Shown here in pieces: positions 16,977-39,091 of a DNA stretch of 39,091 bases. The stretch covers positions 1-39,091 of the forward strand of contig NZ_JAGQDE010000032.1 in the NCBI RefSeq assembly GCF_018069755.1, read 5' to 3'. This stretch comes from Ideonella aquatica (lineage in GTDB: Bacteria; Pseudomonadota; Gammaproteobacteria; Burkholderiales; Burkholderiaceae_C). A model generated the notes under the pieces. It saw nothing but the letters and a program-made list of their open reading frames with translations, did no database searches and was not told the DNA's origin. Position numbers and translations under genes: made by a program. Within the stretch, counting starts at the first letter, position 1. Every line of letters begins with the position of its first letter.

Positions 16977-17176
16977 GGGGCAACGATCGGTGGACGCGTC
17001 AGGTTGACAGGGGAGATTGTCGGCCGGCGCCGCGGGGGGCGCATGTCGCGGGTGTAAACAGCGGTGTCGGGCGGGCGAGGTCCCTTGGACAGGGGGGCGC
17101 CGGGCTGGGAGCCGCGCTCATCTGGGAGTATTCTTGCCCACCCCTGTGCTGCCCCGAGATGCGCGGAGAACCCGAG
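16977..17176. other. Divergent intergenic region
   Basis: A 200-bp gap between the lipoprotein gene (minus) and the metallopeptidase operon (plus). It is GC-rich, with one AT-leaning stretch (GGAGTATTCTTG, about 17126-17137) and GGAGAA at 17165-17170 as the ribosome binding site for the gene at 17177. Promoters for both genes should be here, but none could be assigned. Confidence 0.4.
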
Positions 17177-18921: not shown

Positions 18922-21900
18922 ATGAAGCTCACTGCCCTTCAGAAACAGTTCATCACCGGCAAGCTGGGCGTCCAGCCGCGCAAGCGCACCGGCCTGTTCA
19001 AGAGCCCCGATCAAAAGACCGACGAGGCGATCGGCAAGGCCGCCGAGAACTACACCCGGCGCGAGGGCAAGGTGCTCACCGACCTGGCCACGCTGGAGAA
19101 GTCGGGCAGTCTGGGCGGCCTGATCGCCAGTTTCGAGAACGAGGTCGGCCAGATCCAGAACCGCATCCGGGGCGCGCTGCGCGACGCTGGCGAGGCGGTG
19201 CTGCGCGAGGCCTACGAGGCCCTGGACGCGATCAAGAAGGCGGTGCGCAAGGAAGTCGAGGCCGAGAAGGGCAACCCCGGCTTCGTGGCCAAGCGCGAGG
19301 CGGTCAAGGTGCTGCTCGGCCAGCTCGATGCCCACGCCCAGGCGGCCCACGTCAAGCCCTGGACCGACCAGGCGCGCACCGACTGGAACGAGGCGATCCG
19401 CCTGAACGACGCCAAGCAGTACCCGCAAGCCACGGCCAAGATCGACGCCGCCAAGAAGCGTTGCGACGAGGCCCTGGCAGCCGCGGGCAAGTTCAACGAC
19501 TACCGCATCGCCCGCGCGCCGGCCACTGGGACCTTGAAGACCATGGCGGACATGTACGCCACCGCGGCCACCTACACCGGCTACCAGAACCAGCTCAACG
19601 CGGCCGACGCCCAGGCCACACTGGCCACTGGCCAGTACGACCAGGCCATCGTGGCTGTCAAGGCCATCGCCAAGAACATGGCCGCTGACAGGAAGCGCTG
19701 GCTGGAGCAGGAACTCAACGATGCCATCAACAACCTGCAAAGCGCGCCGCAGGCCGATTTCATCAAGGACGACTGCATCAAGACGCTGCAGACGCTGCTG
19801 GCCAGCGTGCCGGGCAAGGTGGCGGCCGGCGACTATGCCTCGCTGAACCTGATGTCGACGGCGGTGGGCGAGTTGAAGCAGCGTGGGCTGGACATCACAT
19901 TGCGGCGAGATGTCTTCGTCAAGGCCCGCGCCGCGGCCGTCAGCGCGCTGGCGCCGATCAAGGCCTGCGCCCCGCTGACCGCGCGTGCCGGCGTGCTCGA
20001 GACCCGCCTGACCGCCGAGGCCGACCCGGCGGCGGCGCTGACGGCCCTGCGCTTCGAGGAAGCCACCGCCATCTGCGAGGCCGTGCGCACCGAGGCGCTG
20101 GCGCTGGCCCCGTCCGCCGGCCTGGCCACTGCGGCCCTGAACGACCTGGCCGGCCTGGACAAGCGCCTGGAGGCCCTGGAGAAGCTGGCCGATGGCCGGC
20201 GGCCTCAAGCGGCCATCGAGGCCCTCAAGGCCTTGCGCGCCCAGGCCGGCGAGCGGGTCAAGCCCGAGGTTGCCGACTGGCTGGGGGCGCGCGTCTTCAT
20301 CGACCGCCTCAGCGCCGAGATGGCCAGTGCCGAGACGCTGGCCAAGCAGCTGGAGGCCACGGCGGGCGCCGCCGAGGCGGCCCGGCCCGGGGCCGACGCC
20401 ACTGCGCTGGGCAAGGTCATGGAGCAGCTGCGGACCGAACTCACCCAACTGGCCCAGCCGCCCATCGCCGATGCGCTGTCCAAGTCGCTCAAGGCCGCCG
20501 GCGCCAGCCTGGACAAGGCCCAGAAGCTGGTGGGCGAGGGTACGCTGGACAAGGCGGGCGAACTGATCGCCCAGGTCGCCAAGGACATCGCCGCCGCCTG
20601 GGCCAGCCACGAGGCCCAGCGCAGCGCCGAGGCGGGCCTGACCCTGCTGCGTGAACGTGTCAAGACACTGGGTGAACAGGTCAAGGCCGGCAGCTTCAAG
20701 GCGCTGGCGGGTCAGCACGGTGAGCTCAAGACCTTGCTGGCTGCCGCCGAGAAGGCCCACAAGGCCGGTGACGCCCCGGCCACCCAAACAGAGATCGCCG
20801 CCGCCCTGGCCCGGGCGGGCGAGATCGACCGCTGGGTGGCGGACATCCAGGCCTTTGATCTGCGTGCCACCGACCTGGGCCAACGCAGCCAGGATGCCAA
20901 GTCGGGTGGCGCCGATGTCCGGGCGATCGACGCGTTGATCAAGAAGGCCGCCGACGCGCTGGCCAAGCTCGACCTGGCCGGCGCGCGCCAAGGGCATGAC
21001 CAGGCCGAGGCCGAACTGACTGCGCTGCGGGTGGCCTCGCTGGCCCAGGCCAATCCCAATGACCCGGCGGTGGTGGCGCAGGCCGAGGCGCTGCTCAAGC
21101 TGCCCGGCGGCGAGAAGAAGCTCGATGCCTTTGTCCGGTCGCTCGGCTCGGAAGCCGATTACGCCTTGATCTGCAAGCTGGCCGAGAAACGCTTTGGCAT
21201 CCAGATGGGTGACCGGCGGGTCCAGCAGACCCAGCCCGATGGCACCACCGTGACGCTGGCCAGCCACAGCGACCGGGGCAAGGCCACGATCACTGCCCAG
21301 GGCATGTGGGAGGCCTTGGCGCAGGTGCCTGGCGGTCACGCCAAGCAGCCCAGCCTCAAGAAAGTGTCGCTGGAGAAGCCCTACAGCGGCGGCGGTGCGT
21401 TCAATTGGGTCGACAAGAAGGTCATCATGAACGGCCGGCCCGATGACGGCAAGACCGAGAAGTTCGACGCCGACACGCGCATGGAGGCCCTGGGTCACAA
21501 CAACCAGGATGACTACGCGCCGATCGACGCCACGCCCAAGAACCTGTTCAACATGACCGCGCTGCACGAGATCGGCCATGCGGTGGACGACCGGCTGGGC
21601 TTCATGAACAGCAAGATGGGGCAGGACGCCTTCGGAGGCTGGCAGGTCTACACCGATCTGGCGCCGATCGCCAAGGCGGTCGCTGCCGCCAAACAGTTCG
21701 ATGAGACCTTCGTGCGCCAACTGATCAACGGCCAGGATCCGGCACCCGCCGTCATGCCGGCCGACTACGCCGGTGGTGCCGTCAAATGGGAGAAGGCCCG
21801 GCAGGCGGTGCTCGATTGGTACACGGCGGCCACCACCGGCCAGATCTGGTACAGCCATGCCGACTCCAAGGCGGCGGCGATCGGTGACGTGGTCTACCAG

Positions 21901-22074
21901 GAGGCCTACCCGGACAACTGGGTCAGCTACAAGCTCGCCGAGCGCGCCAAGGGGGTCACCGGCTACCAGTGGCGGGCGCCAGGTGAGTGGTTTGCCGAGA
22001 TCTACATGTGCTGGCACGGCGGCAAGCTGGACAAGAACACGCATCCGTTCAAGGACTGGCTGAACGCCCTCTGA
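18922..22074 (+). CDS. Large helical protein with C-terminal HEIGH zinc metallopeptidase domain; candidate secreted effector
   Basis: The 1050-residue product has no signal peptide. About the first 750 residues are Ala/Lys/Glu-rich helical repeats (LLASVPGKVAAGDYASL, LEALEKLADGRRPQAAIEAL). A distinct C-terminal domain from about residue 775 has GAFNWVDKKVIMNGRPDD, the zinc motif H882-E-I-G-H886 inside MTALHEIGHAVDDRLGF, and a later W-R-A-P-G-E1022-W-F-A-E1026 that could supply the third zinc ligand of a gluzincin-type site. A long delivery region with a C-terminal enzyme domain is the architecture of polymorphic or contractile-injection toxins. The T6SS genes 7 kb away support that, but no MIX, PAAR or VgrG fusion is visible. 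AGGAGAG lies nine bases upstream of the ATG. Enzyme class is seen in sequence; the effector role is inferred. Confidence 0.85.
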   Translation: MKLTALQKQFITGKLGVQPRKRTGLFKSPDQKTDEAIGKAAENYTRREGKVLTDLATLEKSGSLGGLIASFENEVGQIQNRIRGALRDAGEAVLREAYEALDAIKKAVRKEVEAEKGNPGFVAKREAVKVLLGQLDAHAQAAHVKPWTDQARTDWNEAIRLNDAKQYPQATAKIDAAKKRCDEALAAAGKFNDYRIARAPATGTLKTMADMYATAATYTGYQNQLNAADAQATLATGQYDQAIVAVKAIAKNMAADRKRWLEQELNDAINNLQSAPQADFIKDDCIKTLQTLLASVPGKVAAGDYASLNLMSTAVGELKQRGLDITLRRDVFVKARAAAVSALAPIKACAPLTARAGVLETRLTAEADPAAALTALRFEEATAICEAVRTEALALAPSAGLATAALNDLAGLDKRLEALEKLADGRRPQAAIEALKALRAQAGERVKPEVADWLGARVFIDRLSAEMASAETLAKQLEATAGAAEAARPGADATALGKVMEQLRTELTQLAQPPIADALSKSLKAAGASLDKAQKLVGEGTLDKAGELIAQVAKDIAAAWASHEAQRSAEAGLTLLRERVKTLGEQVKAGSFKALAGQHGELKTLLAAAEKAHKAGDAPATQTEIAAALARAGEIDRWVADIQAFDLRATDLGQRSQDAKSGGADVRAIDALIKKAADALAKLDLAGARQGHDQAEAELTALRVASLAQANPNDPAVVAQAEALLKLPGGEKKLDAFVRSLGSEADYALICKLAEKRFGIQMGDRRVQQTQPDGTTVTLASHSDRGKATITAQGMWEALAQVPGGHAKQPSLKKVSLEKPYSGGGAFNWVDKKVIMNGRPDDGKTEKFDADTRMEALGHNNQDDYAPIDATPKNLFNMTALHEIGHAVDDRLGFMNSKMGQDAFGGWQVYTDLAPIAKAVAAAKQFDETFVRQLINGQDPAPAVMPADYAGGAVKWEKARQAVLDWYTAATTGQIWYSHADSKAAAIGDVVYQEAYPDNWVSYKLAERAKGVTGYQWRAPGEWFAEIYMCWHGGKLDKNTHPFKDWLNAL

Positions 22075-24776: not shown

Positions 24777-26597
24777 TCAGCGCACGATGTCCAGCCGGAT
24801 CTCGGCGGCGCCGTAGCGGTTGCAGCTGCCCGAACTGCAGTTGCGGGCGCGGCCGATCAGCGGTGACACCGCGCCGGCTGCCTGCGACAGGCGTTGCAGC
24901 GTCGCCGCGTCGGTGGGCAGGCTCAGGTAGCCGCCATCCTCGCGGCCGCCCCACTGGTCGAAATCGCGCTGCTCCGGCGTGACGATCACCAGCAGGCGGG
25001 TCGGGCCTGGCGGGTCGCCTGCGGGGATCTGATCGTTGCCCGGCGGCAGACGCAGCGGCTTGCCGGCGACGACCGGGACGCTGCGGTGCAGGCTGTTGGG
25101 CAGCAGGCGGATCAGGCTGTTGTCGGGGCCCAGGGCCAGCACCGTGGCAAAGCCGTTCTGGGTGGCGCGCAGGCCAAAGACCAGGTCGTCGCGGTCGATC
25201 TTCAGCGTGGTCTTGGGCGCGCTGGCGTCGACCCGGAAGTCGGCCGGCGCCTCGCGCAGCACGCGGTCGAACTCGGCCCCGATGTCCAGGCCGGGCTGGG
25301 CCACCGGGGCTGGCGGAGCGGCCACCGGGGCAGGTTCGGGGGCGCTGGCGACACTCAACGGCGGCGGCGCGGGTGTGGCGACCGGTTCGGCGGGCGCAGC
25401 ACTGGCCGCCGCGGTGGGCGCGGGTGCCGGTGCCGGCGAGCGGCCCAGGCTCAGGTAGCCCACCGTCCCCAACACGGCCAGTCCGGCCACGCCGGCCCCC
25501 ACCCACAAGCCCATGCCGCGCTTGGCCGGCGCGGGGGCGGGTGCGCTGCTGCTGCCGGCCCGGCTGGGTGCCGGGCTGCTGGGCATCAGCGTGACAGCGG
25601 CGCCAAAGCTGCCGGCCTCGGCCAGGCCCAGGTCGGCCCGGAAGGCATCGATCGACGGCGTGCGCTGGTCGGGCAGCACGCCCAGGGCCTTGTCGATCGC
25701 GGTGAGAAAGGTCGCGCTGTACTGACCGGCATGGGTCTGCGCGATCGGCTTGTAGCTGTCGGTGACGATGCGGCTGACCGAGGGCGGCGGCGTGCCGCCA
25801 GTGATCGCGTAGTAGATCGACGCGGCCAGCGCGTAGACATCGGTCCAGGGGCCCTGCTTCAGGTCGGGCGACTCGGCGTACTGCTCGACCGGCGCGTAGC
25901 CGGGCTTCAGGATCACCGTCAGTGCCTGCGTCATGTCGCCGATCACGCGGCGCGCGGCGCCGAAGTCCAGCAGCAGCGGCCGTTCGCTGCCGGCCAGCAG
26001 GATCACGTTGTCGGGTGCGATGTCGCGGTGAAAGCAGTTCTCGCGGTGGATCACCGCCAGCGCCTCGGTCAGCGGCGCCAGCAGGTTCATCAGCCAGGCC
26101 TCGTCCGGGGCCGCGCCATGGTCGCGCAGCCAGTCCTTCAGCGTGATGCCCTCATAGAAGGGCATCACCATGTAGGCGGTGCCGTTGGCCTCCCAGAAGC
26201 GGTAGACCTTGACCAGCGAGGGGTGGTCGAACTGGGCCAGCAGCTTGGCTTCGTTGATGAAGCTCTTCATGCCGGCGGCAAAGGTGTCCTGGTGCCGCTG
26301 CGACTTGACCTGTACCTGGGTGGCGCCCACCCGCATCGCCAGCGACGAGGGCATGTACTCCTTCAGCGCCACCCGGCGCTCCAGCGAGTGGTCCCAGGCC
26401 AGGTAGACGATGCCGAAGCCGCCCTCGCCCAGCACGCCGGTGAGTTCGAACTCGCCCAGGTAGGTGCCGATCGGCAGGTTGCTGCCCCCGTCCTGCGGGG
26501 CGGCCGCCGGGCCGGCGGGCGGCGCCGGAGGGAGCGCAGGGGACGCGCCCACGGGGCGGATGACGGTGCGGTCGTCGTCGTCGGAAGGCAAGGTCAT
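24777..26597 (-). CDS. PpkA-like membrane Ser/Thr protein kinase with C-terminal DUF4384-like domain
   Basis: The 606-residue Hanks-type kinase has a glycine loop GEGGFG (57-62), catalytic lysine in ALKEY (Lys79), H190-R-D192 with Asn197, and D211-F-G. A Pro/Ala-rich linker leads to one membrane helix at about 364-384 and another Ala/Pro linker. The periplasmic domain from about 435 has the pattern LVFGLRATQNGFATVLALGPDNSLIRLLPN, as in DUF4384. The N-terminus carries DRTVIRP (residues 9-15, Thr11), nearly identical to a peptide in TssL of this cluster. With the PP2C phosphatase and FHA protein near the right edge it would form the threonine-phosphorylation pathway that triggers T6SS firing in other bacteria. 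It lies apart from the core operon, divergent from the ompA pair. Confidence 0.93.
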   Translation of the reverse strand: MTLPSDDDDRTVIRPVGASPALPPAPPAGPAAAPQDGGSNLPIGTYLGEFELTGVLGEGGFGIVYLAWDHSLERRVALKEYMPSSLAMRVGATQVQVKSQRHQDTFAAGMKSFINEAKLLAQFDHPSLVKVYRFWEANGTAYMVMPFYEGITLKDWLRDHGAAPDEAWLMNLLAPLTEALAVIHRENCFHRDIAPDNVILLAGSERPLLLDFGAARRVIGDMTQALTVILKPGYAPVEQYAESPDLKQGPWTDVYALAASIYYAITGGTPPPSVSRIVTDSYKPIAQTHAGQYSATFLTAIDKALGVLPDQRTPSIDAFRADLGLAEAGSFGAAVTLMPSSPAPSRAGSSSAPAPAPAKRGMGLWVGAGVAGLAVLGTVGYLSLGRSPAPAPAPTAAASAAPAEPVATPAPPPLSVASAPEPAPVAAPPAPVAQPGLDIGAEFDRVLREAPADFRVDASAPKTTLKIDRDDLVFGLRATQNGFATVLALGPDNSLIRLLPNSLHRSVPVVAGKPLRLPPGNDQIPAGDPPGPTRLLVIVTPEQRDFDQWGGREDGGYLSLPTDAATLQRLSQAAGAVSPLIGRARNCSSGSCNRYGAAEIRLDIVR

Positions 26598-28022: not shown

Positions 28023-28985
28023 TCAGTGCATCGCGTTCAGCACCGCCCAGGCCGACCAGCCGTAGAACAGCAGCGGCATCGCCACCAGCACGATCCGGTC
28101 GATCTTGAGCGCCAGCTGCTCGCGGCCGTTGACCTCGTACTTCAGCGCCACCGCCGAGATCATCAGGCTTGCGAAAATGAAGGCCAGCGCCACCATGTGC
28201 ATGTGGTCGGCCAGTGTCATCACGCCGGAGTCGGGCACCGAGCCAGCCGCCACGAAGGCGCTGGCGGCCACCGCGAACAGCGAGCCCACGCCCATGCCAA
28301 AGCGGGCATCCAGGTCGGACGGCTTGACCATGAAGGCCACGAAGGCCACGGCGGTGGCCAGCAGCACCGTGCTCAGCAGCTTCAAGGCACTGCCAAAGGT
28401 CTGGCGGTCCAGGTCCAGCGCAAACGAGAAGCGTGAGAACGCCGAGCGCGCGTCCGTCGACAGCGACGGATCCCCGTAGTTGGAGTGGTAGGTCATGGTG
28501 CTGACCTGGGTGGCGAAGTTGCTGGCCAGCCAGCCGGCGATGGCCATCTCGTCGCCCAAGCGCGAGTTCGGCTGATCGGCCACGAAGACCATGTCATCGG
28601 CACCCAGGTTGGCATCCTCGATCGCGATCTTGATGCGGTGGCGGTCAAAGGGAAACTTCACCAGGTCCCAGGGCTCGTTGATCGTGGCGACGATGCGGGT
28701 GCTTGCGTAATGCTCGCCATTGACGACCTTCTCCACCACGCTGGAGCGGTCCTCGATCTTGCCGTTGACCAGCTCCAGGCTTTCCAGCGGCTTGTAGTCC
28801 TTCAGGCCCTCGGTGGGGCGCCAGCGGAACCAGACGAAGAAGTCGATGGTGTACTTGTTGGCCCTGAAGTCCAGGTCACGCACCTCCTTGACATAGCTGC
28901 CGATCATCACCGGCGATGGCGCCGCGTGGGCTGTCGATCCGAGCAGCAGCCCGGTGAGCAGGGCGAACAGGGCAAACCAACGCAT
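28023..28985 (-). CDS. Prokaryotic pentameric ligand-gated ion channel homologue
   Basis: The 320-residue product has a signal peptide (ending TAHA-AP, residue 21). An extracellular beta-sandwich domain follows, with IGSYVKEVRDLDFRANKYTIDFFVWFRW and FPFDRHRIKIAIED, the bacterial counterpart of the Cys-loop FPFD motif at 111-114. Four membrane helices follow at about 198-220, 228-249, 258-281 and 297-318. It contains no cysteine at all, as expected for prokaryotic members that lack the disulfide. GGAGGA five bases before the ATG is a strong ribosome binding site. It sits 34 bp downstream of the TssBC gene on the same strand, so it is probably the last gene of the T6SS operon. Ligand and ion are unknown; no established link between this channel family and T6SS is known to me. 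Confidence 0.85.
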   Translation of the reverse strand: MRWFALFALLTGLLLGSTAHAAPSPVMIGSYVKEVRDLDFRANKYTIDFFVWFRWRPTEGLKDYKPLESLELVNGKIEDRSSVVEKVVNGEHYASTRIVATINEPWDLVKFPFDRHRIKIAIEDANLGADDMVFVADQPNSRLGDEMAIAGWLASNFATQVSTMTYHSNYGDPSLSTDARSAFSRFSFALDLDRQTFGSALKLLSTVLLATAVAFVAFMVKPSDLDARFGMGVGSLFAVAASAFVAAGSVPDSGVMTLADHMHMVALAFIFASLMISAVALKYEVNGREQLALKIDRIVLVAMPLLFYGWSAWAVLNAMH

Positions 28986-29019: not shown

Positions 29020-30822
29020 TCAGCCGAGCGACTTCAGCAACGCTTCCAGATCCGGGTCCATCGCCGGTTCCTCGGTCGCGGGCTCGGCCGGCGTGTCCAG
29101 GCTGGCCAGCAGGGCGGCCAACTCGTCATCCACCGCGGCGGCCGTCTCCTCAGCGGCCGGCGCCTCGGCGGCCGTTGCCTCGGTGGCCGTGTCGCTGCGG
29201 GGGTCCTCGGGGGCGTCGGCCGGCTCATCGCTGGCCGTCTCCTCGGCGTGCATGGGTGCGCTGACCGACACCGTGCCGCCGCCACGGGCCTCGGGCGTCC
29301 AGTCGGTCTGGACCGGCGCCTTGCTGTGCACCGCACCGCGCGCCACCACCAGGCCCGAGCGGGGTGCCGACTGGGTGGCCAGACCGTCGCCATTGACCGC
29401 GGTGACGCCGGTCAAGCGCACCAGCGGCTGGCCCTTGAAGGCCATCAGGCCGTTGATGCCCACGTCGCGCAGCAGCGTGGCCACGGTGGTGCTGACCAGG
29501 CGCTCGGTGCAGGGCAGGGCGGTGGAGTCGCCGTCGTCGTCCAGGTAGTGGTGGAAGGGCAGGTCATTGATGGTGAGCTGCGCGCCGCGCACGCACAGCA
29601 CGCACAGCGCCAGCAGTGCCGGGTGGCCCCACAGCATGCTGCGCAGGCCGCTCTGGCGTGTGAACTCCTCGTACGCGAAGCTGCTGATCGGCTCGCTCTT
29701 CTTGCCATAGGGGTGGCGCAGCAGGAAGCGCGGACCAAAGAGGCCCAGGAACGAGGCCTGGGGTGACTCGCGCAGGGCCTTCACCGTGTCGCGCACCAGG
29801 CGGTGCGGCGGCTCCTTGCGGTTGCTGAAGGCGGTGGTGTCGATCGCACTGAGGAAGGGCGCGCCAGCCGCCGCGCCCAGCATCGCGGCGCGGCCCAGCA
29901 GCTCCAGCTGCGGCGGCGTGGCCTCAAAGTGGTAGCAGCCCACGATGTAGCTGTAGCCGCCGTCCTCTTCCTGCGAGGGTGTGTCGACCAGCGCCTTGTA
30001 CAGGCCGGACTCGCCCAGGTCGTCGTGGCTGCTCAGGTCGGCCGCGAACTCTTCGGCGCTGACATCGATCAGGTGTACCTGCAGCTGGTGGCTGGTCTCC
30101 AGCCGGCGCAGCAGGAAATCCACGCCGCGCCAGAGCGACTCCATGTTCTGGAAGTCGGGCTGGTGCAGCACGGCAGTCATCGCGTCGCTGAGTGCCGCAT
30201 CCACGGCGGCCAGCAGCTTGGCTTTGTCGGGGCTGTCGGCTGGCGTGATGAAGGGCCCGATGATCCGCCGCAGCAGGCCATCGACCGCGGTGTCGGCCTC
30301 CTGGGCCCGCGAGGCGCGGCCGGTGAGCCGGGCGAAGTCGTCCAGCGTGCCGCCGGCCGACAGCGCTGCGCCCTGCGCACGCGAGTGCCGGCTGACCACC
30401 GAGGCCTTGCGCAGCGCCTCATCGCCCCAGGACTGCACCTCGGCGGCGGCCTTGGCGAAGGTGGCCGGGGTGTTCAGGCGCCGACGCAGGTCGGACAGCG
30501 CCGAGAAGACCTCGACGTTCTGGTAGAGCTCATCGGGGTGGAAGGATTCGGTGTCGGTGATCGGCACCTCGACCGCCGCGCCTTCGGCGCCGATCGGCAG
30601 CGTCAGCGACAGGCCGAGGCGGGCGATGGCGTCCTCCAGCGTGTCGAATTCGACCTTCAGCGGCTTGCGCCGGCCCAGCGTGTCCGAGTCGTCCAGGCGG
30701 CCTGAGAGCGCGCCGCCGCCGAAGTCGCCCAGCAGGGCCACGCGCAGCGGGCGTTTGGCGGCCCAGGTGGGGGGCTGGGTGGTGAGGTGGCCGAAATTCG
30801 GTTGCCAAGTGTCATTGCTCAT
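29020..30822 (-). CDS. TssB-TssC fused T6SS sheath protein with acidic C-terminal tail
   Basis: A single 600-residue protein combines both sheath subunits. Residues about 24-130 are TssB-like (RPLRVALLGDFGGG, KPLKVEFDTLEDAIARL, TESFHPDELYQNVEVFSALSDLRRRL). A linker of about 45 residues leads to a TssC-like part, about 178-480 (LHQPDFQNMESLWRGVDFLLRRLE, HLIDVSAEEFAADL, FLLRHPYG, MLWGHPALLAL, CTERLVSTTVATLLRDVGINGL). An acidic Ala/Glu-rich tail, about 525-600, contains two copies of a helical peptide (DDELAALLASLD and DPDLEALLKSLG). Sheath polymers contract to propel the Hcp/VgrG spike. The gene lies 18 bp after tssM, with AGGAG before its ATG. It could instead be a sheath-like accessory working beside separate TssB and TssC encoded elsewhere. 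Confidence 0.85.
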   Translation of the reverse strand: MSNDTWQPNFGHLTTQPPTWAAKRPLRVALLGDFGGGALSGRLDDSDTLGRRKPLKVEFDTLEDAIARLGLSLTLPIGAEGAAVEVPITDTESFHPDELYQNVEVFSALSDLRRRLNTPATFAKAAAEVQSWGDEALRKASVVSRHSRAQGAALSAGGTLDDFARLTGRASRAQEADTAVDGLLRRIIGPFITPADSPDKAKLLAAVDAALSDAMTAVLHQPDFQNMESLWRGVDFLLRRLETSHQLQVHLIDVSAEEFAADLSSHDDLGESGLYKALVDTPSQEEDGGYSYIVGCYHFEATPPQLELLGRAAMLGAAAGAPFLSAIDTTAFSNRKEPPHRLVRDTVKALRESPQASFLGLFGPRFLLRHPYGKKSEPISSFAYEEFTRQSGLRSMLWGHPALLALCVLCVRGAQLTINDLPFHHYLDDDGDSTALPCTERLVSTTVATLLRDVGINGLMAFKGQPLVRLTGVTAVNGDGLATQSAPRSGLVVARGAVHSKAPVQTDWTPEARGGGTVSVSAPMHAEETASDEPADAPEDPRSDTATEATAAEAPAAEETAAAVDDELAALLASLDTPAEPATEEPAMDPDLEALLKSLG

Positions 30823-30840: not shown

Positions 30841-33800
30841 TCACAGCGCATCGGGGCAGCGGAAGCCGCTCATCTCGCGCATCCGCAGCGGATTGATCGC
30901 GCTGCCCGAGATCACTTCCATCCGCACTTTCTTGCCATCCACGGTCATCAGCACCGCAAACTTCTCGGGCTGCGGCGAGGGCTGGATCTCGAACTGGTTG
31001 AACAGTCGGAACAGCGCCCACGGGCCCTCGAACAGCTGCGGCGTGCTGCCGGCGCCGCTGCTGAGCTTGATCTGCGAGGCCACCTTGGTGCTGGGCCAGG
31101 TGATGGTCTGCGCGGCGGTGTTGCCGGCGGCGAACTTGAAGACCTGGCCGTCGATGTCGAGGTCCACTTCCTTCAGGCCCTCGGCCATCTCCACCACGCG
31201 CACGTCCACCTTGAAGCCGGGCTGCTTGCCGCCAGCGCGGAAGAAGGCCTCGCGGATCTTGGACGCACGCTGGAAGTCGGCCAGCGCGGCGCCGCCGGGC
31301 GGGCGGGTGCCGTCGGTCAGTGGCTTGAAGGTCCAGGGCGTGACGCCGGTGTCGACCAGCGTGGCCAGTCGGCGGTTGTAGAAGTCATCCAGCTGGCCGC
31401 CCACGCCGAACATCTGGCCGAAATCATCCGGCAGCACGTCGGACTTGGAGCCCGGCGCGAACGGGAAGCGGCCGGCGATGGTGCGCTGGCACTGCTCGGC
31501 GATCGGCTTGAGCTCGGCGCTCAGGCCCTGGCGCTCGGCGTTGCGGCTTTGTGCGGCACCGGCGCTGCCCAGGGCCTCGAGGATGGACTTGATCGGCTCG
31601 GGCTGCAGGCCGGCCGCGGCCTTGGCGGCGTCGCTGCCACCGCCGCCACCGCCCGCGGGCGGGGCGCTCTTGCTCTTCTGGGCGGCGGACACCGCATTGA
31701 GCTGCACATAGACCTCGTTGAAGAGCTTGCCCACCTCCTCGATCGGCGCGGGCTGGCCCTCCAGCAGACGGTGGATGTGGGCGAAGTGGTCGTCGACCAT
31801 CTGCTCCAGCGGCGCGCCATCGGCCTTGGCCGCGGGATCCGGCGCCTTGCCCACCAGCGCCGCCATGTCCTCCTTGGCCTTGCCGGCCTTGCTGAGCAGG
31901 CCGCCGGCCACGCTGTCGGCGCGGGCCTCCTGCCTGGCCTTGACCACGGCGCCCAGCTGCGTCTCGCGCGTGACGGCGCGGATCCAGGCCATCAGCGGTG
32001 AGTCCGGCGCGGCCAGCACACGGGCCACGGCCACGCTGCGGTCGATGCCGTCCAGGCGCACCAGGCGCACATCGGCCAGGTAGGTATCCCAGACCTTGAT
32101 GTACTCCTGCAGGTAGAGGCGGCGGATCTTGGCGTCCAGCTCATTGCCGGCCAGCATGTTCTTGGCGGCATCCTTGACGCCACCCGGTGCCGACGGCGTG
32201 CCCAGCACCCATTCCTGCTCGGCAGCCAGCGTGGGCGTGACCTTGGCCACGGCCTTGGTGAAGCCCTTGAAGTAGCCGTCCTTGGTGAACAGGCCCGGCA
32301 CGCCCTTGGTGATCGGCTGACCGCTGGCGCGCTCGAAGACCTGGGCCGAGTTGGGGCCGCCCGCGGCAGCGATCGAGATCTCGGGGAAGTCGCTGCCGGC
32401 GCCGGCGCGGCGCAGGCGGCTGAAGATGCGGTACTCCAGCGGGTAGGCCACCAGCATCTCGCGCACATTGGCCACCAGGGTCTTGTCCATCGGCGCGATG
32501 GCCTGCGGCGCGCCCTGTCCCAGCGCATTGGCCAGGTGCACGCCCAGCGCGGCGCGCTTCTCGTCGTTCAGTGTGCCGGCCAGGTTGGCGTCCCAGTCCA
32601 GCGTGACCCAGGCGTGCAGCGACTCGGCGTCGAAGTGCTCGGGCGTGTAGAGCATCACGTAGGCCTTGAGGGCCTCGTAGGCCAGCTCCAGGTTGTCGCG
32701 GTTGGCGGCGCGCAGCCGCTCTTCCAGACGGCGCACCACGCGCGGCAGCAGCGCATGGTCCAGCAGGTGGCGGTAGCCGGTGTCGGCGCCGGCCTGCAGG
32801 TAGCGGCCCTGGTACAGGCCCAGGCCGTTGAGCAGGGGCACCTTGTCGTGCTCGAAGCCGGCCGGCCGCGCGGCCTGGTTCAGCAGGTCCAGCACCGCGG
32901 GCAGGGTGCCGAAGTCGCTGCTGGCGCTGGGCACCACGGTGTCGACCGCGGCCTTCAGCTCCGGCAGCTTGCCCTCGACCTCGGCCACATAGGCCTGGTT
33001 GCGCCACAGGCTGACCACCCAGCCGGCCAGCAGCGCCACCGAGGTGATGCCCAGCACCCCAAAGCCCGCCAGGCGCAGGCGGCGACGGCTGGCGGCGACC
33101 TGCTTGTTCTCGCCGGCCAGGCCCTGCTCGACAAAGATCACGTCCTTCAGCAGGCGCGCCAGGAAGAAGCTCTTGCCGCGCGACGAGGCGATCCCCGCCG
33201 CCTTCTGGTCCACGCCAAAGGTGCGCGCCAGCGTGCCCAGCACGCGGTCGATCGGCGAGCCCTCCTGCGTGCCGCTGGTGAAGTAGACGCCGCGCAGCAG
33301 GGCGCGCTCCTCCAGGCTGCCGCCGCCGTCGAAGACCTGCTCCAGGAAGCCGCCCAGCAGGCCCTTCAAGCCGCCGAACTGCTGCGGGAAGGTGAAGACC
33401 GCAGCGCGCTTCATCAGGTCACGCTCGGCCTGCAGGGCATCGAGCAGGCGGTCGCGCAGGCGCTTTTCCAGGGCCGCGAACTCGGCCGGGAAGGACTGCA
33501 TCGGGTTGTCCAGGCCGCGCGGGTCGTGCGGGAAGCTGAAGCCCCAGACCTGGTCGCGCTCTTCCTTGTTGAACTCGCCGAAGCTCTCGTTGAAGCCGGC
33601 AATCAGGTCGGTCTTGGTGACCATCACATAGACCGGCGGGCGGATGCCCAGGCGCTGGTGCAGCTCCTGCAGCCGGGTGCGCAGGCGCGCGGCGTGGTCC
33701 TTGCGGTCGGCCGGGCTTTGCTGCAGCAGGTCCTGCACGTTGACGGTGAGGATCACACCATTGATCGGCCGGCGCGGGCGCGACTTCTTCAGCAGCGCCA

Positions 33801-34416
33801 GGAAGTTCTCCCAGGCCGAGGCGTCGACCTTCTCGTCGGACTTCTGCAGCGTGTAGCGGCCGGCGGTGTCGATCAGCACCGCCTCGTCGGTGAACCACCA
33901 GTCGCAGTTGCGGGTACCGCCGACGCCCTTGATGGCGCCCTGGCCCATCTTGCCGGCCAGCGGAAAGGTCAGGCCGGCGTTGAGCAGCGCGGTGGTCTTG
34001 CCCGAGCCGGGGGCGCCGATGAAGATGTACCAGGGGCGGTCATACAGGTAGCCGCCGCGGTTCAGGAAGGAGCGCTTGCCGCTTTGCCGGGCGCTGTCCT
34101 CCAGCGTGGCCAGGGCTTCGGTGAAGCGCTTGTCGAGCTGCTCGGCCTCGCGGTCGCTGGCCGACGGGCCGCCCTGCAAGCCGCGCACCATGGCCGTGCT
34201 GTTGCGCCGGCGGCGCCAGGCGCGCAGGCCCATGATCAGGCCGATGAACAGCGCCAGCCCGGCGATCGCCCACAGGCGTGCGCCAGTGCCGTCCAGCGGG
34301 TGCTCGTCGTTCCAGGACAGGACCGGGCCTACCCACCACACCAGCGCGGCCAGGGCCAGGAAGCCGTAGAGCACCAGCAGCAGCGGGTGCAGGAGGATCT
34401 GCAGAACTTTTTTCAT
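30841..34416 (-). CDS. tssM: T6SS membrane complex protein TssM (IcmF)
   Basis: Inner-membrane core of the T6SS trans-envelope complex, partner of TssL and normally TssJ. The 1191-residue product has two N-terminal membrane helices (about 8-30 and 48-65), a cytoplasmic NTPase-like domain with Walker A G134-A-P-G-S-G-K140-T141 and DTAGRYT, a third helix around 450-472 (LAGFGVLGITSVALLAGWVV), and a large periplasmic part with the usual C-terminal beta domain. Walker A is intact, which is not true of all TssM. The ribosome binding site is weak; it lies 31 bp after tssL and 18 bp before the sheath gene. The periplasmic region carries a Gly/Ser/Pro-rich loop (PPAGGGGGGSDAA). Confidence 0.96.
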   Translation of the reverse strand: MKKVLQILLHPLLLVLYGFLALAALVWWVGPVLSWNDEHPLDGTGARLWAIAGLALFIGLIMGLRAWRRRRNSTAMVRGLQGGPSASDREAEQLDKRFTEALATLEDSARQSGKRSFLNRGGYLYDRPWYIFIGAPGSGKTTALLNAGLTFPLAGKMGQGAIKGVGGTRNCDWWFTDEAVLIDTAGRYTLQKSDEKVDASAWENFLALLKKSRPRRPINGVILTVNVQDLLQQSPADRKDHAARLRTRLQELHQRLGIRPPVYVMVTKTDLIAGFNESFGEFNKEERDQVWGFSFPHDPRGLDNPMQSFPAEFAALEKRLRDRLLDALQAERDLMKRAAVFTFPQQFGGLKGLLGGFLEQVFDGGGSLEERALLRGVYFTSGTQEGSPIDRVLGTLARTFGVDQKAAGIASSRGKSFFLARLLKDVIFVEQGLAGENKQVAASRRRLRLAGFGVLGITSVALLAGWVVSLWRNQAYVAEVEGKLPELKAAVDTVVPSASSDFGTLPAVLDLLNQAARPAGFEHDKVPLLNGLGLYQGRYLQAGADTGYRHLLDHALLPRVVRRLEERLRAANRDNLELAYEALKAYVMLYTPEHFDAESLHAWVTLDWDANLAGTLNDEKRAALGVHLANALGQGAPQAIAPMDKTLVANVREMLVAYPLEYRIFSRLRRAGAGSDFPEISIAAAGGPNSAQVFERASGQPITKGVPGLFTKDGYFKGFTKAVAKVTPTLAAEQEWVLGTPSAPGGVKDAAKNMLAGNELDAKIRRLYLQEYIKVWDTYLADVRLVRLDGIDRSVAVARVLAAPDSPLMAWIRAVTRETQLGAVVKARQEARADSVAGGLLSKAGKAKEDMAALVGKAPDPAAKADGAPLEQMVDDHFAHIHRLLEGQPAPIEEVGKLFNEVYVQLNAVSAAQKSKSAPPAGGGGGGSDAAKAAAGLQPEPIKSILEALGSAGAAQSRNAERQGLSAELKPIAEQCQRTIAGRFPFAPGSKSDVLPDDFGQMFGVGGQLDDFYNRRLATLVDTGVTPWTFKPLTDGTRPPGGAALADFQRASKIREAFFRAGGKQPGFKVDVRVVEMAEGLKEVDLDIDGQVFKFAAGNTAAQTITWPSTKVASQIKLSSGAGSTPQLFEGPWALFRLFNQFEIQPSPQPEKFAVLMTVDGKKVRMEVISGSAINPLRMREMSGFRCPDAL

Positions 34417-34447: not shown

Positions 34448-35785
34448 TCACGAGGCGTTCTGGGCCACGAACAGGGTCACCACCACGCGGCGGTTGCGCG
34501 CGCGGCCGGCGGGCGAGCCGTTGTCGGCCACCGGCTCGGCATCGGCACGGCCCTCGGCCTTCAGGCGGGCCAGCGGCACGCTCTGGCCCAGGTCCTGGCG
34601 CACCGCCTCGGCGCGGTCTTGCGACAGGTGCCAGTTCGACGGGTAGCGCAGCGTGCGGATCGGCTGGTTGTCGGTGTGGCCGGTGATCAGCACCTGGCCC
34701 GGGGTCTCGGACAGGGCCTTGGCGATGCGGCCCAGCAGCGGGCGCACGCTGTCGGAGATCTGCGCGCTGCCGGGCTCGAAGAAGCCGTCGCCGCGGATCG
34801 TCACCACCGAGCGGTCGGCCAGGTCCTGCACGCTGACCAGGCCGGCGTCGATCTCGGCCTTCAGGAAGGTGGCCAGGCGCGGCTTGGGTGCCGGCGGCGG
34901 CGGCGGCGGTGCCTGGATGGTGGCGGCCTTGACGTCCAGCGCCGCCAGTGCGCTGAACACCGGGTCGGCCTTGTCGGCCAGGCGCAGGCGCAGGCCCAGG
35001 AAGACCATGGCCAGCACCAGCGCGGTGACCGAGGCGATGACCCACATCGGCAGACCGTCGGTCAGGCGCTCGCCCTCGGTGGGCACGCCCTGCCAGCGCG
35101 GCGACAGCGTGCGCTCCTGCGCGGGCTTGCCCTGGCGCAGCATCTGGGCCAGGCGGTCGCGCACGCTGTCGAGCTGGGCGCGGCCGTTGTCAAGCACGCG
35201 GTAGCGGCCCTCGAAGCCGAAGCTCAGCACCACGTACAACAGCTCCAGCAGGTTGCGGTTGGCATCCACCTTCTCGGCCAGCTTGGACATCAGCTGGAAG
35301 ACCTTTTCGCCACCCCAGGTCTCGTTGTGGAACTGCACCAGCAGGCTTTGCGCCGACCACACGCCCGAGCCGCCCCAGGGCGTGCTGGCGGCCATCTCAT
35401 CGAGCAGGGTGCACAGGATGTAGCGCGCAGCGATGACCTGCTCGTTGGGCAGGCCCTGGGCGCGGGCCTGGGTCTCGAACTTGCGGATGCCGTCGGCCAG
35501 CGATTCCTTCAGCCCCGCCGGGTTGGGGTGGCGTGCGGTGGTGCGCACGCGCGGCGCGGCGGCCAGCAGCGGCACGGCCGCGGCCACCAGCGGGTTCAGG
35601 CTGGCGGTCATCAGCGCGTCCATCGCCATCGGCGCGTCGCGGCCGCCAGCGGCGGTGGTGGCGGCGGCTGGGGCCGGCGCGGCCGGGTCAGCGGGCGTGC
35701 CCGGTCGGGCGCCACGCCCGGCGGCGGGCTTGATCACCGTGCGGTCGGAGCCGAAGGCGGCAAACGGATCGTCCTGGTCGCTCAT
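34448..35785 (-). CDS. tssL: T6SS protein TssL (DotU) with OmpA peptidoglycan-binding domain
   Basis: Inner-membrane partner of TssM. The 445-residue product starts with a disordered segment bearing DRTVIKP (residues 14-20, Thr16), then the cytoplasmic DotU domain (about 60-225, with ILCTLLDEMAASTPWG and WGGEKVFQLMSKL), a single membrane helix at about 245-267, a Pro-rich spacer, and a C-terminal OmpA domain (about 320-440, with ITGHTDNQPI and ARNRRVVVT) that anchors the complex to peptidoglycan. In Agrobacterium a TssL threonine (Thr14) is phosphorylated by PpkA and bound by Fha, and Thr16 here is placed to do the same. It lies between tssK and tssM. Confidence 0.95.
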   Translation of the reverse strand: MSDQDDPFAAFGSDRTVIKPAAGRGARPGTPADPAAPAPAAATTAAGGRDAPMAMDALMTASLNPLVAAAVPLLAAAPRVRTTARHPNPAGLKESLADGIRKFETQARAQGLPNEQVIAARYILCTLLDEMAASTPWGGSGVWSAQSLLVQFHNETWGGEKVFQLMSKLAEKVDANRNLLELLYVVLSFGFEGRYRVLDNGRAQLDSVRDRLAQMLRQGKPAQERTLSPRWQGVPTEGERLTDGLPMWVIASVTALVLAMVFLGLRLRLADKADPVFSALAALDVKAATIQAPPPPPPAPKPRLATFLKAEIDAGLVSVQDLADRSVVTIRGDGFFEPGSAQISDSVRPLLGRIAKALSETPGQVLITGHTDNQPIRTLRYPSNWHLSQDRAEAVRQDLGQSVPLARLKAEGRADAEPVADNGSPAGRARNRRVVVTLFVAQNAS

Positions 35786-35823: not shown

Positions 35824-37161
35824 TCAGCCGCGCACCGCCCAGAATTCGAGTTCGAGGCCGGGGAACTCGCCCGCGATGTGCAGGGCCAGTCCACCGGAGG
35901 ATTCCAGCTGCTTCCACAGCTCGTTGCCGCGGGTCTCCAGCTCGAAGTAGTTGAAGCCGGCGTGGTAGGGGATCTGGCGCGGCGCCACTGGCATCGGCCG
36001 CAGTGTCACGCCGGGCAGCTGCAGGTTGACCAGGTCGCGGATGCGCTCGACCGGGCCGATCTTGACCTGCGTGGGGAAGCGCGCGCGCAGCGCATCGCCG
36101 GGCAACTGGGCGCCCACGGCCAGCACGAACTGCGCGCTGCGCTGCAGCTCAATGTCGGCAATGATGGCCACCCGCACGCCATAGGCGCGCTCCTGCAGCT
36201 CGATCGAGATGGCGTTCTGCTCCAGCACCATCGACAGCGACTGGCGCAGTGCGTCCATCAGCGGCTTGAAGCAGCGCTGCGGGTCGTCGTGCAGGTAGGC
36301 TGGCAGCGGCGGCGGGCGGCGGCGCTCGCCAAAGGTGGACAGATCACCGGCCAGCGAGCAGGCGCTGAAGTACAGCTCGCGCGGGTGCAGCACCGAGCAT
36401 TGGCGCATCTGCGCCAGCAGCGGCTCGTGGCGGTTCACGGCCTCGAGCAGCAGGAAGTCGGCGATCTCGCCGACGCCCGCGCGGCCGGGCTGGGCCAGGC
36501 GCGCGGCCAGCGCCTCGCCGCGTTGGTGCAGGAGGCCGTGCAGCTCGCGCAGGTACCCGGCCAGCAGGTCGTTGCCGCCGGCGTTCAGCGTCGGCGGGAT
36601 GAACTGGGTATCGAGGATGACCTTGTTGTCGGCGCGCCGCTCGACGATGCGGCACAGGCCCAGCGTGGCGTGGCCTTCGGCGGCGTCGCGGGCCAGCATC
36701 AGGCGCAGATTGACGCGGCCGATCTGCAGCGGCGCGGTGCGCTCGCCGGTGGCATTGCTGTCGCCCACATCGACCTCGGTGGCCAGGAAGCGTGGCGGCA
36801 TGGTCGAGGTTTCGCCCTCGGCGTCGGTCTCGGCCACGCCGGGGCGGGGCAGGGTGAGCGCCAGCACCACCAGTTCGTCGCGCGCATCGGCGGGTACGTC
36901 CAGCGCGGCCGGGGCGGCGTCCTGGCCGGGGATTTCGAAGGCCTGACCGTCGGGCATCAGGCCCACCGCGGCGTTGATCGCGATCTTGCCCAGGTTCAGC
37001 GCTGCGTGGTCCAGCTGCAGCGACACGAAGCCCCAGCTGTAGGCCAGCAGGGCGCTCTGGCGCGCATGGTCCTGGGCCGAAAGGTAGCGGTCGTGCTGCT
37101 GGAAATGCTGCGGCTGGAGGAACATGCCCTCGGCCCAGATCACTTTGTTTTGCCAGGTCAT
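35824..37161 (-). CDS. tssK: T6SS baseplate protein TssK
   Basis: Baseplate subunit linking the T6SS baseplate to the TssL/TssM membrane complex. The 445-residue length is typical, and the start MTWQNKVIWAEGMFLQPQHFQQHDRYL is diagnostic for the family. Later conserved stretches include ELYFSACSLAGDL and a C-terminal NYFELETRGNELWKQLESSGGLALHIAGEFPGLELEFWAVRG. It precedes tssL with 38 bp between. TssJ, often the neighbour of TssK, is missing here. Confidence 0.96.
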   Translation of the reverse strand: MTWQNKVIWAEGMFLQPQHFQQHDRYLSAQDHARQSALLAYSWGFVSLQLDHAALNLGKIAINAAVGLMPDGQAFEIPGQDAAPAALDVPADARDELVVLALTLPRPGVAETDAEGETSTMPPRFLATEVDVGDSNATGERTAPLQIGRVNLRLMLARDAAEGHATLGLCRIVERRADNKVILDTQFIPPTLNAGGNDLLAGYLRELHGLLHQRGEALAARLAQPGRAGVGEIADFLLLEAVNRHEPLLAQMRQCSVLHPRELYFSACSLAGDLSTFGERRRPPPLPAYLHDDPQRCFKPLMDALRQSLSMVLEQNAISIELQERAYGVRVAIIADIELQRSAQFVLAVGAQLPGDALRARFPTQVKIGPVERIRDLVNLQLPGVTLRPMPVAPRQIPYHAGFNYFELETRGNELWKQLESSGGLALHIAGEFPGLELEFWAVRG

Positions 37162-37573: not shown

Positions 37574-38386
37574 TCAGGCCATCGGGTTGCCGACCCAGAC
37601 GGCGATGCCGCTGAAGTTGTCGTGCCGCGGCTTGCCGGTGCTGCGCGCATGTGTCAGCACCGATTGTTCCAGCCGGGCCAGCCAGTCGGCCGGGTCGTTG
37701 GAGCGCGCCAGGCTGGCGCTCATCTCGGCCTCGTCCACATGCTCCCACAGGCCGTCGGTACACAGCAGGAAGACGTCGCCCTCGCGCAGCACCCAGGGCC
37801 GCGAGGCGGTGGAGACCTTCAGGTGCTCGGTGGGCGTGCCCAGGGCCGACAGCAGCTCGCTGCGCTGGGGGTGGGTGCGCATCTGGTCGGGGCTCAGCAG
37901 CCCGGCCTCGACCAGCGACTGCACCACGCTGTGGTCGCGCGTGTGGGCCAGCATCTGGCCGCCGCGGAACAGGTACAGGCGCGAGTCGCCGGCATGGCCC
38001 CACAGCGCGGTACCCGAGGACAGATCGATGAACAGCGCCACCACGGTGGAGTGCATGTCCTTCTGCGCCGGGTCATCGTCGCGGTGGCTGAGCACCGAGG
38101 CGTTGGTGTCGAGCAGCAGATCGTGGACCTCATCGGGCGCGTGCAGCGGCGCGGCCGAGGCCTGCTCGATGATGTGGCGCACCGCCAGGCGTGCAGCGAC
38201 ATCGCCGCCGCCGTGGCCGCCGGCGCCGTCGGCCACCACGCAGCACAGGTACTGCTCGGAGTGCCAGTGGCCGCAGGCGTCCTCGTTGTAGTCGCGCCCG
38301 CCCACCCGTGACAGGATGGACAGCTCGATGGCCGGCAGGTCGCCCAGGCCGAAGACCGAATCGGCAAACGGTGCGTCGTCGCTCAT
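37574..38386 (-). CDS. PP2C-type protein phosphatase (PppA)
   Basis: A 270-residue metal-dependent Ser/Thr phosphatase, the counterpart of PppA, which reverses PpkA phosphorylation and turns T6SS off. PP2C motifs are present: SRVGGRDYNEDA (Asp36), VVADGAGGHGGG (Asp53), STVVALF, LWGHAGDSRLYLFR, LLCTDGLWEHV and HDNFSGIAVWVG. The ATG at 38386 overlaps the tagH stop in ATGA. The open frame runs 44 residues further upstream but only into tagH. No membrane segment; it should be cytoplasmic. The location in the core operon supports the T6SS role. Confidence 0.94.
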   Translation of the reverse strand: MSDDAPFADSVFGLGDLPAIELSILSRVGGRDYNEDACGHWHSEQYLCCVVADGAGGHGGGDVAARLAVRHIIEQASAAPLHAPDEVHDLLLDTNASVLSHRDDDPAQKDMHSTVVALFIDLSSGTALWGHAGDSRLYLFRGGQMLAHTRDHSVVQSLVEAGLLSPDQMRTHPQRSELLSALGTPTEHLKVSTASRPWVLREGDVFLLCTDGLWEHVDEAEMSASLARSNDPADWLARLEQSVLTHARSTGKPRHDNFSGIAVWVGNPMA

Positions 38387-39091
38387 CCTCGGCCCCGCGA
38401 CTGCAGCTGGTCGATGTGTTCCTCGTAGGCCTTCAGGAAGGCCTTGCCGAAGACGGTGTGGAAGTCGTCCTGCGCCTCGCTGCGGATCTGCGTGTAGAGC
38501 TCGTTGAAGCTCTCCCACAGGCGCGCCTTGCGCGCTGCCGGCAGGATGGCCTGCAGCGCACTGCGCTGGGTCAGTGTGCCTTCCAGGCGCGCGGGGTCGA
38601 AGCGCTCGAGCACGCCCTCGAGCGCGGCGCGCATGCCGGCGACGAAACCGTATTGGTGGGCGCGCAGGTCGTCGTAGGCGTCACGCATGGCCGGGGCGGC
38701 GGGCATGAAGCCGCGCGTGGGCGGCGCCAGCAGGTGGCCCAGCGCGGCCTCGGCGCTGGGCGAGAACTTCAGCGGGTTGTTTTCCTTGGCCACGATCATG
38801 GTGGACTCGGCGCGGATCTCGCGCTTGAGCGCGGCGCGTGCCACCAGCAGGTCGACGGTGCCGGCGGCGGATTCACGCAGCAGCTCGCCGATCAGCTTCA
38901 TCAGCGCCGGGGTCAGGGCCTCGACCTGCACCGTGGGCGTGGCCAGGCCTTCGCGGAAGGCGGCCAGCAGGGCCTGCACCGCGGCGGCATCGGCCGCACC
39001 CGACGCCGCAGGCGCGGCCCCGGCCGCACCCGACGCCGCAGGCGCGGCCCCGGCCGCACCGAGCGGCGGCGCGACCGGGGCCGCTGGGGCG
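38383..39091 (-). CDS. tagH: T6SS FHA-domain protein TagH/Fha, C-terminal part (open at window edge)
   Basis: Only the C-terminal 235 or so codons are inside the window; the frame is open to base 39091. The visible part is an Ala/Pro/Gly-rich linker containing a 10-residue repeat, then the conserved TagH C-terminal domain with VDLLVARAALKREIRAESTMI, ENNPLKFSPSAEAALGHLL, RGFMPAAPAMRDAYDDLRAHQ and FGKAFLKAYEEH. The N-terminal FHA domain, which should bind phosphothreonine, would lie to the right. A GTG at 38979 is not the start, since the frame continues. The stop overlaps the phosphatase ATG. Family identity is from the C-terminal domain alone. Confidence 0.87.
   Translation of the reverse strand, partial: APAAPVAPPLGAAGAAPAASGAAGAAPAASGAADAAAVQALLAAFREGLATPTVQVEALTPALMKLIGELLRESAAGTVDLLVARAALKREIRAESTMIVAKENNPLKFSPSAEAALGHLLAPPTRGFMPAAPAMRDAYDDLRAHQYGFVAGMRAALEGVLERFDPARLEGTLTQRSALQAILPAARKARLWESFNELYTQIRSEAQDDFHTVFGKAFLKAYEEHIDQLQSRGRG
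38991..39060. repeat. 30-bp perfect tandem repeat inside tagH
   Basis: A 30-bp unit is present twice in full (38991-39020 and 39021-39050) and then for 10 more bases, with no mismatch. It encodes a 10-residue Ala/Gly/Pro/Ser repeat (GAAPAASGAA) in the linker before the TagH C-terminal domain. Because the unit is a multiple of three, copy changes would lengthen or shorten the linker without a frameshift. Confidence 0.9.

Follow-up and report, generated by a model that had tools for sequence, protein, structure and literature searches.

The fusion gene and its parts

The window analysed here is a stretch of 39,091 nucleotides from Ideonella aquatica (NZ_JAGQDE010000032.1), which makes up one entire contig of a 5.17-Mb genome in 58 contigs. 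On its reverse strand a gene of the type VI secretion system (T6SS) joins parts resembling both sheath subunits, TssB and TssC, in a single polypeptide. Its open reading frame (ORF; 29020..30822) starts with ATG, encodes 600 amino acids without an internal stop, and has a coding-like GC content by codon position (.71/.50/.92). Pfam VipB matches residues 203-473 (E 7.1e-41), T6SS_VipA matches residues 25-118 barely above its cut-off (E 1.4e-5; 25.3 vs 24 bits), and the two sheath models of NCBIfam match below their own cut-offs (136.1 vs 271.5 and 24.8 vs 97.25 bits). Comparison of family profiles with hhalign aligns residues 199-477 with positions 65-370 of 498 in canonical TssC (E 7.5e-43) and residues 23-122 with positions 32-132 of 166 in canonical TssB (E 2.2e-10). 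An earlier note on this DNA had placed the two parts at about 24-130 and 178-480 of one frame, near these limits.

All parts are encoded on the reverse strand. The TssB-like part (residues 23-122, 30457..30756; hhalign and Pfam) is followed by a predicted linker helix (residues 160-168, 30319..30345; AlphaFold model and alignment A2), which lies where the N-terminal helix of TssC would be and of which F163 and L166 are unchanged in all 72 rows of A2. The TssC-like part (residues 199-477, 29392..30228; Pfam, hhalign and model) is without the VipB_2 domain and leads into a low-complexity tail (residues 486-560, 29143..29367) with an AlphaFold predicted local distance difference test score (pLDDT) below 50 at 486-537 and 544-560, which suggests disorder. 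Motif scan and AlphaFold further delimit a tail helix (residues 561-575, 29098..29142) with the motif ELAALLASL at 567-575, and a C-terminal helix motif DLEALLKSL (residues 591-599, 29026..29052). As this architecture recurs among the homologues fetched, it is due neither to chance nor to a sequencing error.

Judged from its sequence, including Pfam and NCBIfam matches, homologues and a tree, the protein is a short variant of TssCL, a family that received its name in 2022 in work on roseobacters (Leisingera sp. ANG-M7; PMC9515649). The suspicion that similar fusions exist elsewhere was therefore correct. The name was found in that paper alone, and no other description of the fusion came up among the papers listed in our search of the open literature, outside which lay subscription papers and preprints. 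The window protein resembles TssCL in joining TssB-like and TssC-like parts in a genome with separate tssB and tssC; the Leisingera homologue L014 is 38% identical to it, and roseobacters fall in the same tailed clade. TssCL was, however, described with 1,684 amino acids and two VipA domains (86% and 26%) (PMC9515649), whereas the window protein has 600 residues, neither a complete N-terminal TssB nor a motif array, and a host in the Burkholderiales.

Missing sheath parts and the canonical sheath

Like the canonical sheath (VipA/VipB; TssB1C1 of Pseudomonas aeruginosa, 5n8n), the fusion has the middle domain built from strands of both TssB and TssC (TssB 32-132 and TssC 65-370), as seen in Pfam, hhalign and the model; unlike it, the fusion is one chain, lacks the handshake strand and the inner domain, and bears an extra disordered tail. 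The N-terminal donor strand of TssB is part of the sheath handshake (PMC5807055). No counterpart of the first 31 TssB residues appears in the fusion, where the hhalign alignment starts at TssB 32; the Pfam VipA match begins only at profile position 27, and the AlphaFold model has no strand of three or more residues before residue 26. Likewise, the inner TssC domain VipB_2 (PF18945), which holds the acceptor strands and a C-terminal donor strand, finds no match in the fusion, while the TssC of the same genome matches it at 4.8e-43. The alignment stops at TssC 370 of 498, and the disordered tail replaces the inner domain.

Canonical tssB (C18:18688-19188), tssC (C18:17141-18640) and clpV (C18:7684-10362) were matched by profile on a different contig, C18, of the same genome; the search for separate copies that the earlier note had proposed found them elsewhere in the genome, not beside the window. 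The note had left the choice between a sheath of fused protomers and a specialised accessory sheath protein. The former, as a sheath of its own, we reject on account of the separate genes and of the lack of both handshake contributors, the TssB strand and the inner TssC domain; except for the place of the genes on another contig, this is essentially what the note had named as contrary evidence. The latter is supported. That the organism's sheath is wholly or even partly built from the one-chain protein is very improbable. The fold of its body, aligned within residues ~22-519, does resemble TssB plus TssC and apparently also the single-chain sheath proteins of phages and extracellular contractile injection systems (eCIS), but the handshake parts are gone, canonical tssB and tssC exist, and a canonical-type TssC match is present in 13 of 13 fusion-bearing genomes of the family sample. 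The single-chain proteins that make up the sheaths of phages, pyocins and eCIS are regarded as true protomers; their identity to the fusion is 7-15% in the rows shown.

The structural comparison also bears on the unlikely alternative that the fusion is an end-piece, forming a ring or a cap where the sheath ends distally or at the baseplate, in the manner of the specialised terminal sheath proteins of eCIS. The four highest single-chain Z scores (15.3-14.5) belong to PlPVC1 chain 4A (baseplate and sheath entries), AFP baseplate chain E and another eCIS baseplate chain, and in many Burkholderiales loci the fusion gene lies near tssM, tagF or tssK; in Vibrio cholerae, a distal density of sheath subunits without an Hcp hexamer has been considered (PMC5813253). 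However, sheath types that differ in Z by 1 to 3 are only weakly separated, rows within less than 1 of each other count as ties, and among the four top rows one is not a baseplate entry. The known route into the mesh is closed to a protein without domain 1 and the linkers, and an end-piece leaves the motif arrays of its relatives unexplained.

A second TssC paralogue beside a canonical TssC is likewise present in Rhizobium and Agrobacterium (ImpD/TssC40); Agrobacterium TssC40 is reported to be indispensable for the secretion of Hcp and to have a role that TssC41 does not cover (PMC3702570). We reject an equation of the fusion with ImpD/TssC40 since the protein compared, Rhizobium ImpD (the Agrobacterium protein was not compared), bears VipB and VipB_2 without a TssB part and falls, on a long branch, on the canonical side of the TssC tree.

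A conserved motif in the tail

To collect homologous loci, two peptides of the core, without the tail, served as bait, and the best 80 of at least 300 confirmed were compared. Two of the 80 homologue ORFs run off their contig. In 74 of the 78 complete ones a C-terminal helical motif of the type [DE]LxALLxxL is found, scanned as [DE][hydrophobic]xx[LM][LFM]xx[LFMI] within the last 14 residues, against a shuffled expectation of 0.001 per protein; in the other four, a close variant begins with G or A. A second, upstream copy lies within the last 75 residues in 58 of the 74. The tight form of the motif was counted 292 times in the 81 fusion ORFs (78,864 aa) and never in the other labelled neighbour ORFs; the remaining reading frames of the loci, 1,480,392 aa in total, contain it once. 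Neither the motif, nor its arrays, nor the lost inner domain is mentioned in the available text of PMC9515649. When folded alone with AlphaFold the tail helices reach a pLDDT of ~86-91, no lower than with the body, so the models do not support docking of the tail on its own body.

The tail might recruit or decoy ClpV, its helices and the linker copying the N-terminal helix of TssC, binding the ClpV N-domain and speeding or restraining recycling; we regard this as unlikely. The hydrophobic spacing of the tail (0,3,4,7) equals that of Y26, L29, F30 and I33 in the TssC1 peptide of enteroaggregative Escherichia coli, whose six main contacts also comprise K32 and N34 (PMC5048182). The linker residues F163 and L166 are invariant, the linker is the best window of a TssC N-helix position-specific scoring matrix (PSSM) in 34 of 80 fusions, and 45 of 80 loci also contain a ClpV gene, which in several of them lies directly upstream of the fusion. 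Two or three hydrophobic spacings, however, are easily matched by chance. In the window protein the PSSM, built from 10 sequences of which one (Rhizobium) is poorly aligned, gives -1.0 bits for the first tail motif and 1.7 bits for the linker, and the last motif is outside the six best windows; among the 80 fusions only 8 have their best window at the C-terminal motif. TssC of the P. aeruginosa H1 system has a similar motif, EFASLL, yet attempts to obtain a complex between ClpV1-N and the N-terminal peptide of this TssC failed (PMC4239648). Mimicry of the TssC N-helix by the tail, suggested by the spacing, is therefore unsupported by the PSSM.

The same matrix gives its top score, 19 bits, to TagH peptides of the form N[DE]FHDLFSREF, which is close to the best value expected by chance over ~400,000 windows. 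A pattern like N[DE]FH[DE]LFSREF is found in 37 of 62 TagH ORFs of the loci and resembles SEFASLLxKEF of TssC; at about chance level, we make no claim for it.

Descent and range

For the TssC-like part a tree was computed from 51 rows, namely the window protein, 29 hand-picked from the 71 other rows of A2, and for comparison six short fusions, 13 canonical TssC, ImpD and the fuller fusion L102 described below. All 30 tailed fusions form one clade apart from canonical TssC (support 100/99), while the TssC of the window genome groups with the canonical TssC of Eleftheria (100/99), and on this tree we reject a recent chimaera of the local tssB and tssC. Eight Burkholderiales rows are united in one clade (100/100), and three planctomycete rows are nested inside the tailed clade. 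Short and tailed fusions are joined with weak support (92/59); long-branch warnings concern the short fusions and ImpD, none the tailed clade.

TssCL was reported as confined to Alphaproteobacteria and the result of a recent event (PMC9515649). The planctomycete and Burkholderiales rows within the tailed clade do not uphold this, and the range of the family has to be extended to both groups: the fusion occurs under Burkholderiales titles (among L018-L033) and planctomycete titles (L036, L041 and L044), several of them metagenome-assembled. The best match of the window protein among genome contigs is in Ideonella alba (92% identity), and it is 36-44% identical to the alphaproteobacterial and planctomycete rows of A2.

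The distribution is patchy. Nine of 150 genomes of the window's family match the fusion at E 5e-176 or better, five of these to the end of the model and thus including the tail; four further genomes carry short fusions, and a congeneric genome (G076) has no match at that level. Among 397 evenly drawn Pseudomonadota genomes, with only three candidates scored per genome, 104 have some TssC-type match and four a full-length fusion match, namely the window's own and short ones in G054, G428 and G268. Phage records gave only five weak matches to the fusion, and defence-system models none to the fusion or L102. Such patchiness might indicate a degenerate, functionless relic of a duplicated sheath operon. 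This is hardly credible in view of the coding bias of the ORF, its recurring operon place, and the invariant core residues and conserved C-terminus across Burkholderiales, Alphaproteobacteria and Planctomycetes.

Two other kinds of fusion were observed. Short, tail-less TssB-TssC fusions of ~470-520 aa occur at L098:8763-10313, L099:6547-8082, L100 (start uncertain), L101, L104:7855-9417 and L105:13350-14783; those of L099-L101 lie between genes that we take, from their sequence, to be DUF4123-like and tssK-like. L102 (L102:6284-9079, genome G005; 931 aa) combines an N-terminal region without a Pfam match, a near-complete TssB, and a TssC that includes VipB_2. Its TssC part is 47-60% identical to five canonical TssC and nests with canonical TssC in the tree (87/89), which makes it a separate, fuller TssB-TssC fusion; G005 has no other match in the survey of 150 genomes.

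Long relatives with an N-terminal TssB

A complete TssB at or near the start of the ORF, ahead of an acidic region that leads into the fusion body, is present in at least 36 of 84 homologues (the 80 loci and four plasmid loci). This is a lower bound, as eight of the 48 others are open at their 5' end. Nearly all of these long homologues have Rhodobacterales titles and one is from Rhizobium; their N-terminal TssB is 68-87% identical to a canonical TssB. The acidic stretch often bears extra copies of the tail motif, from 0 strict copies (e.g., L046, L059, L081 and L092) to 18 (L071). In the Burkholderiales loci L018-L033 the test for a complete TssB at the N-terminus was negative throughout, and the window protein has a single VipA match. 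A complete TssB joined by a long, motif-bearing acidic stretch to a second sheath-like body would amount to a built-in decoration of the sheath; our literature search found no study of such a protein.

The public gene models of the plasmid-borne TssCL in L014-L017 begin inside the open frame and so omit the complete N-terminal TssB. The public annotation of homologues as "contractile sheath large subunit" misleads surveys that count TssC.

A proposed sheath-derived adaptor

On the evidence of sequence and models, the fusion is an accessory paralogue of the sheath protomer, established in its fold, its missing parts, its conserved tail motif and its coexistence with a normal sheath. For its function we infer an adaptor: with a probability of about 0.55, short TssCL is a sheath-derived T6SS adaptor whose tail docks a partner, and not a sheath protomer. 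In this reading an old paralogue of the protomer has kept the middle domain, made of TssB and TssC, in one chain, lost the inner, handshake-forming domain, and gained a disordered tail that ends in one or two short amphipathic helices. Its sheath-like body may sit on or beside the sheath or baseplate, while the tail helices, whose modelled fold does not suffer when the body is left out, would dock a partner in trans. In homologues of the Rhodobacterales type the complete N-terminal TssB would build the protein into the sheath itself, and the acidic tether, often with extra motif copies, would decorate the sheath surface with docking motifs and a second body. The role is likely control of assembly or recycling. 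A functional hint comes only by analogy from Agrobacterium TssC40, a different second TssC paralogue. The guess of a fused sheath subunit thus gives way to the testable idea of an adaptor of sheath origin that bears a short docking motif, and most likely we are dealing with a little-studied family of extra, tail-bearing adaptor proteins and not with a new kind of sheath.

Several points weigh against the adaptor. The analysis found no docking partner, and our literature search found no experiment on the TssCL family. As the window protein is without the N-terminal TssB, nothing here ties it to the sheath, and the model confidence of an isolated tail helix is no proof of binding in trans.

Neighbouring genes and ion channels

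The fusion gene lies 18 bases downstream of tssM (30841..34416), which is preceded on the same reverse strand by a long-form tssL with an OmpA domain (34448..35785) and tssK (35824..37161), all identified with Pfam and NCBIfam. Farther upstream lie a gene for a PP2C phosphatase, of uncertain start (37574..38518, reverse strand; Pfam and NCBIfam), which we take to belong to the threonine phosphorylation pathway, and tagH, encoding an FHA protein (38383..39090, reverse strand; ORF, Pfam and NCBIfam) and cut by the contig end. On the other side, 34 bases downstream of the fusion, a gene resembling a pentameric ligand-gated ion channel (pLGIC; 28023..28985, reverse strand) matches NCBIfam LGIC_1 with E 9.7e-14, which is below the cut-off; a serine/threonine kinase gene with DUF4384 lies at 24777..26597 (reverse strand).

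Among the 80 loci, many of which are cut by contig ends, TssK is encoded in 63, TagH in 61, TssM in 60 and ClpV in 45; six have no labelled neighbour. The gene order is mostly TssM-TagF-fusion in Burkholderiales, sometimes with a kinase in between, ClpV-fusion-TagH in several Rhodospirillales and Acetobacteraceae loci, and ClpV-channel-fusion-VgrG in most Rhodobacterales loci. The nearest downstream gene picked in L028, L029 and L033 is zapD.

Three unrelated classes of ion channel, pLGIC-like, PF00520-type and glutamate-receptor-like, lie near the fusion in different lineages. By blastp, channel genes are present in 35 of 80 loci, the query's own included, and are thus not universal; they were recorded in the window, in L018, L020, L021, L027 and L051-L097, and at L014:10902-11756. 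The PF00520 type is found in 31 of the 80. The roseobacter channel, of voltage-gated type with the filter TLESWSM, is presumably NaChBac-like, and the glutamate-receptor-like one lies downstream of the fusion in one Aquabacterium locus. On plasmids, 22 of 23 TssCL records carry a PF00520-type channel, and all 22 channel relatives of at least 57.9% identity are on TssCL plasmid records, while seven weaker ones are not; 17 of the 22 are from Leisingera, so that these are not independent.

Relatives of the window pLGIC occur in three other genomes of the 150, two at 61% identity and within ~4 kb of a fusion, the third at 32% with no fusion nearby. With the window among three strong cases and the 32% relative counted as a miss, a Fisher test of the association gives p 1.5e-4, a test that was itself prompted by the window. 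It relies on a protein query, since a search with the Neur_chan_LBD family matched nowhere, even in the window genome, and was uninformative. The recurring channels offer a hint of what might set off T6SS firing in these bacteria. It is quite improbable, however, that TssCL is the cytoplasmic half of an ion-gated switch, in which the adjacent channel would sense membrane damage or an external ligand and the motif-bearing TssCL, on or close to the sheath, would convert this signal into assembly or firing.

Two long adjacent ORFs of the forward strand (17159-18898 and 18922-22074; 579 and 1050 aa), neither with a Pfam match above the curated cut-off, are followed in the window by a CpXC gene. 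On contig C18, tagJ was matched by profile, and hcp genes, tssE, tssF, tssG, vgrG, tssA and tagF were named from sequence and position. Near tagF an open frame of 3,885 aa (C18:23193-34850, forward strand), with unusual GC by codon position and long antisense frames, perhaps encodes a very large repetitive protein.
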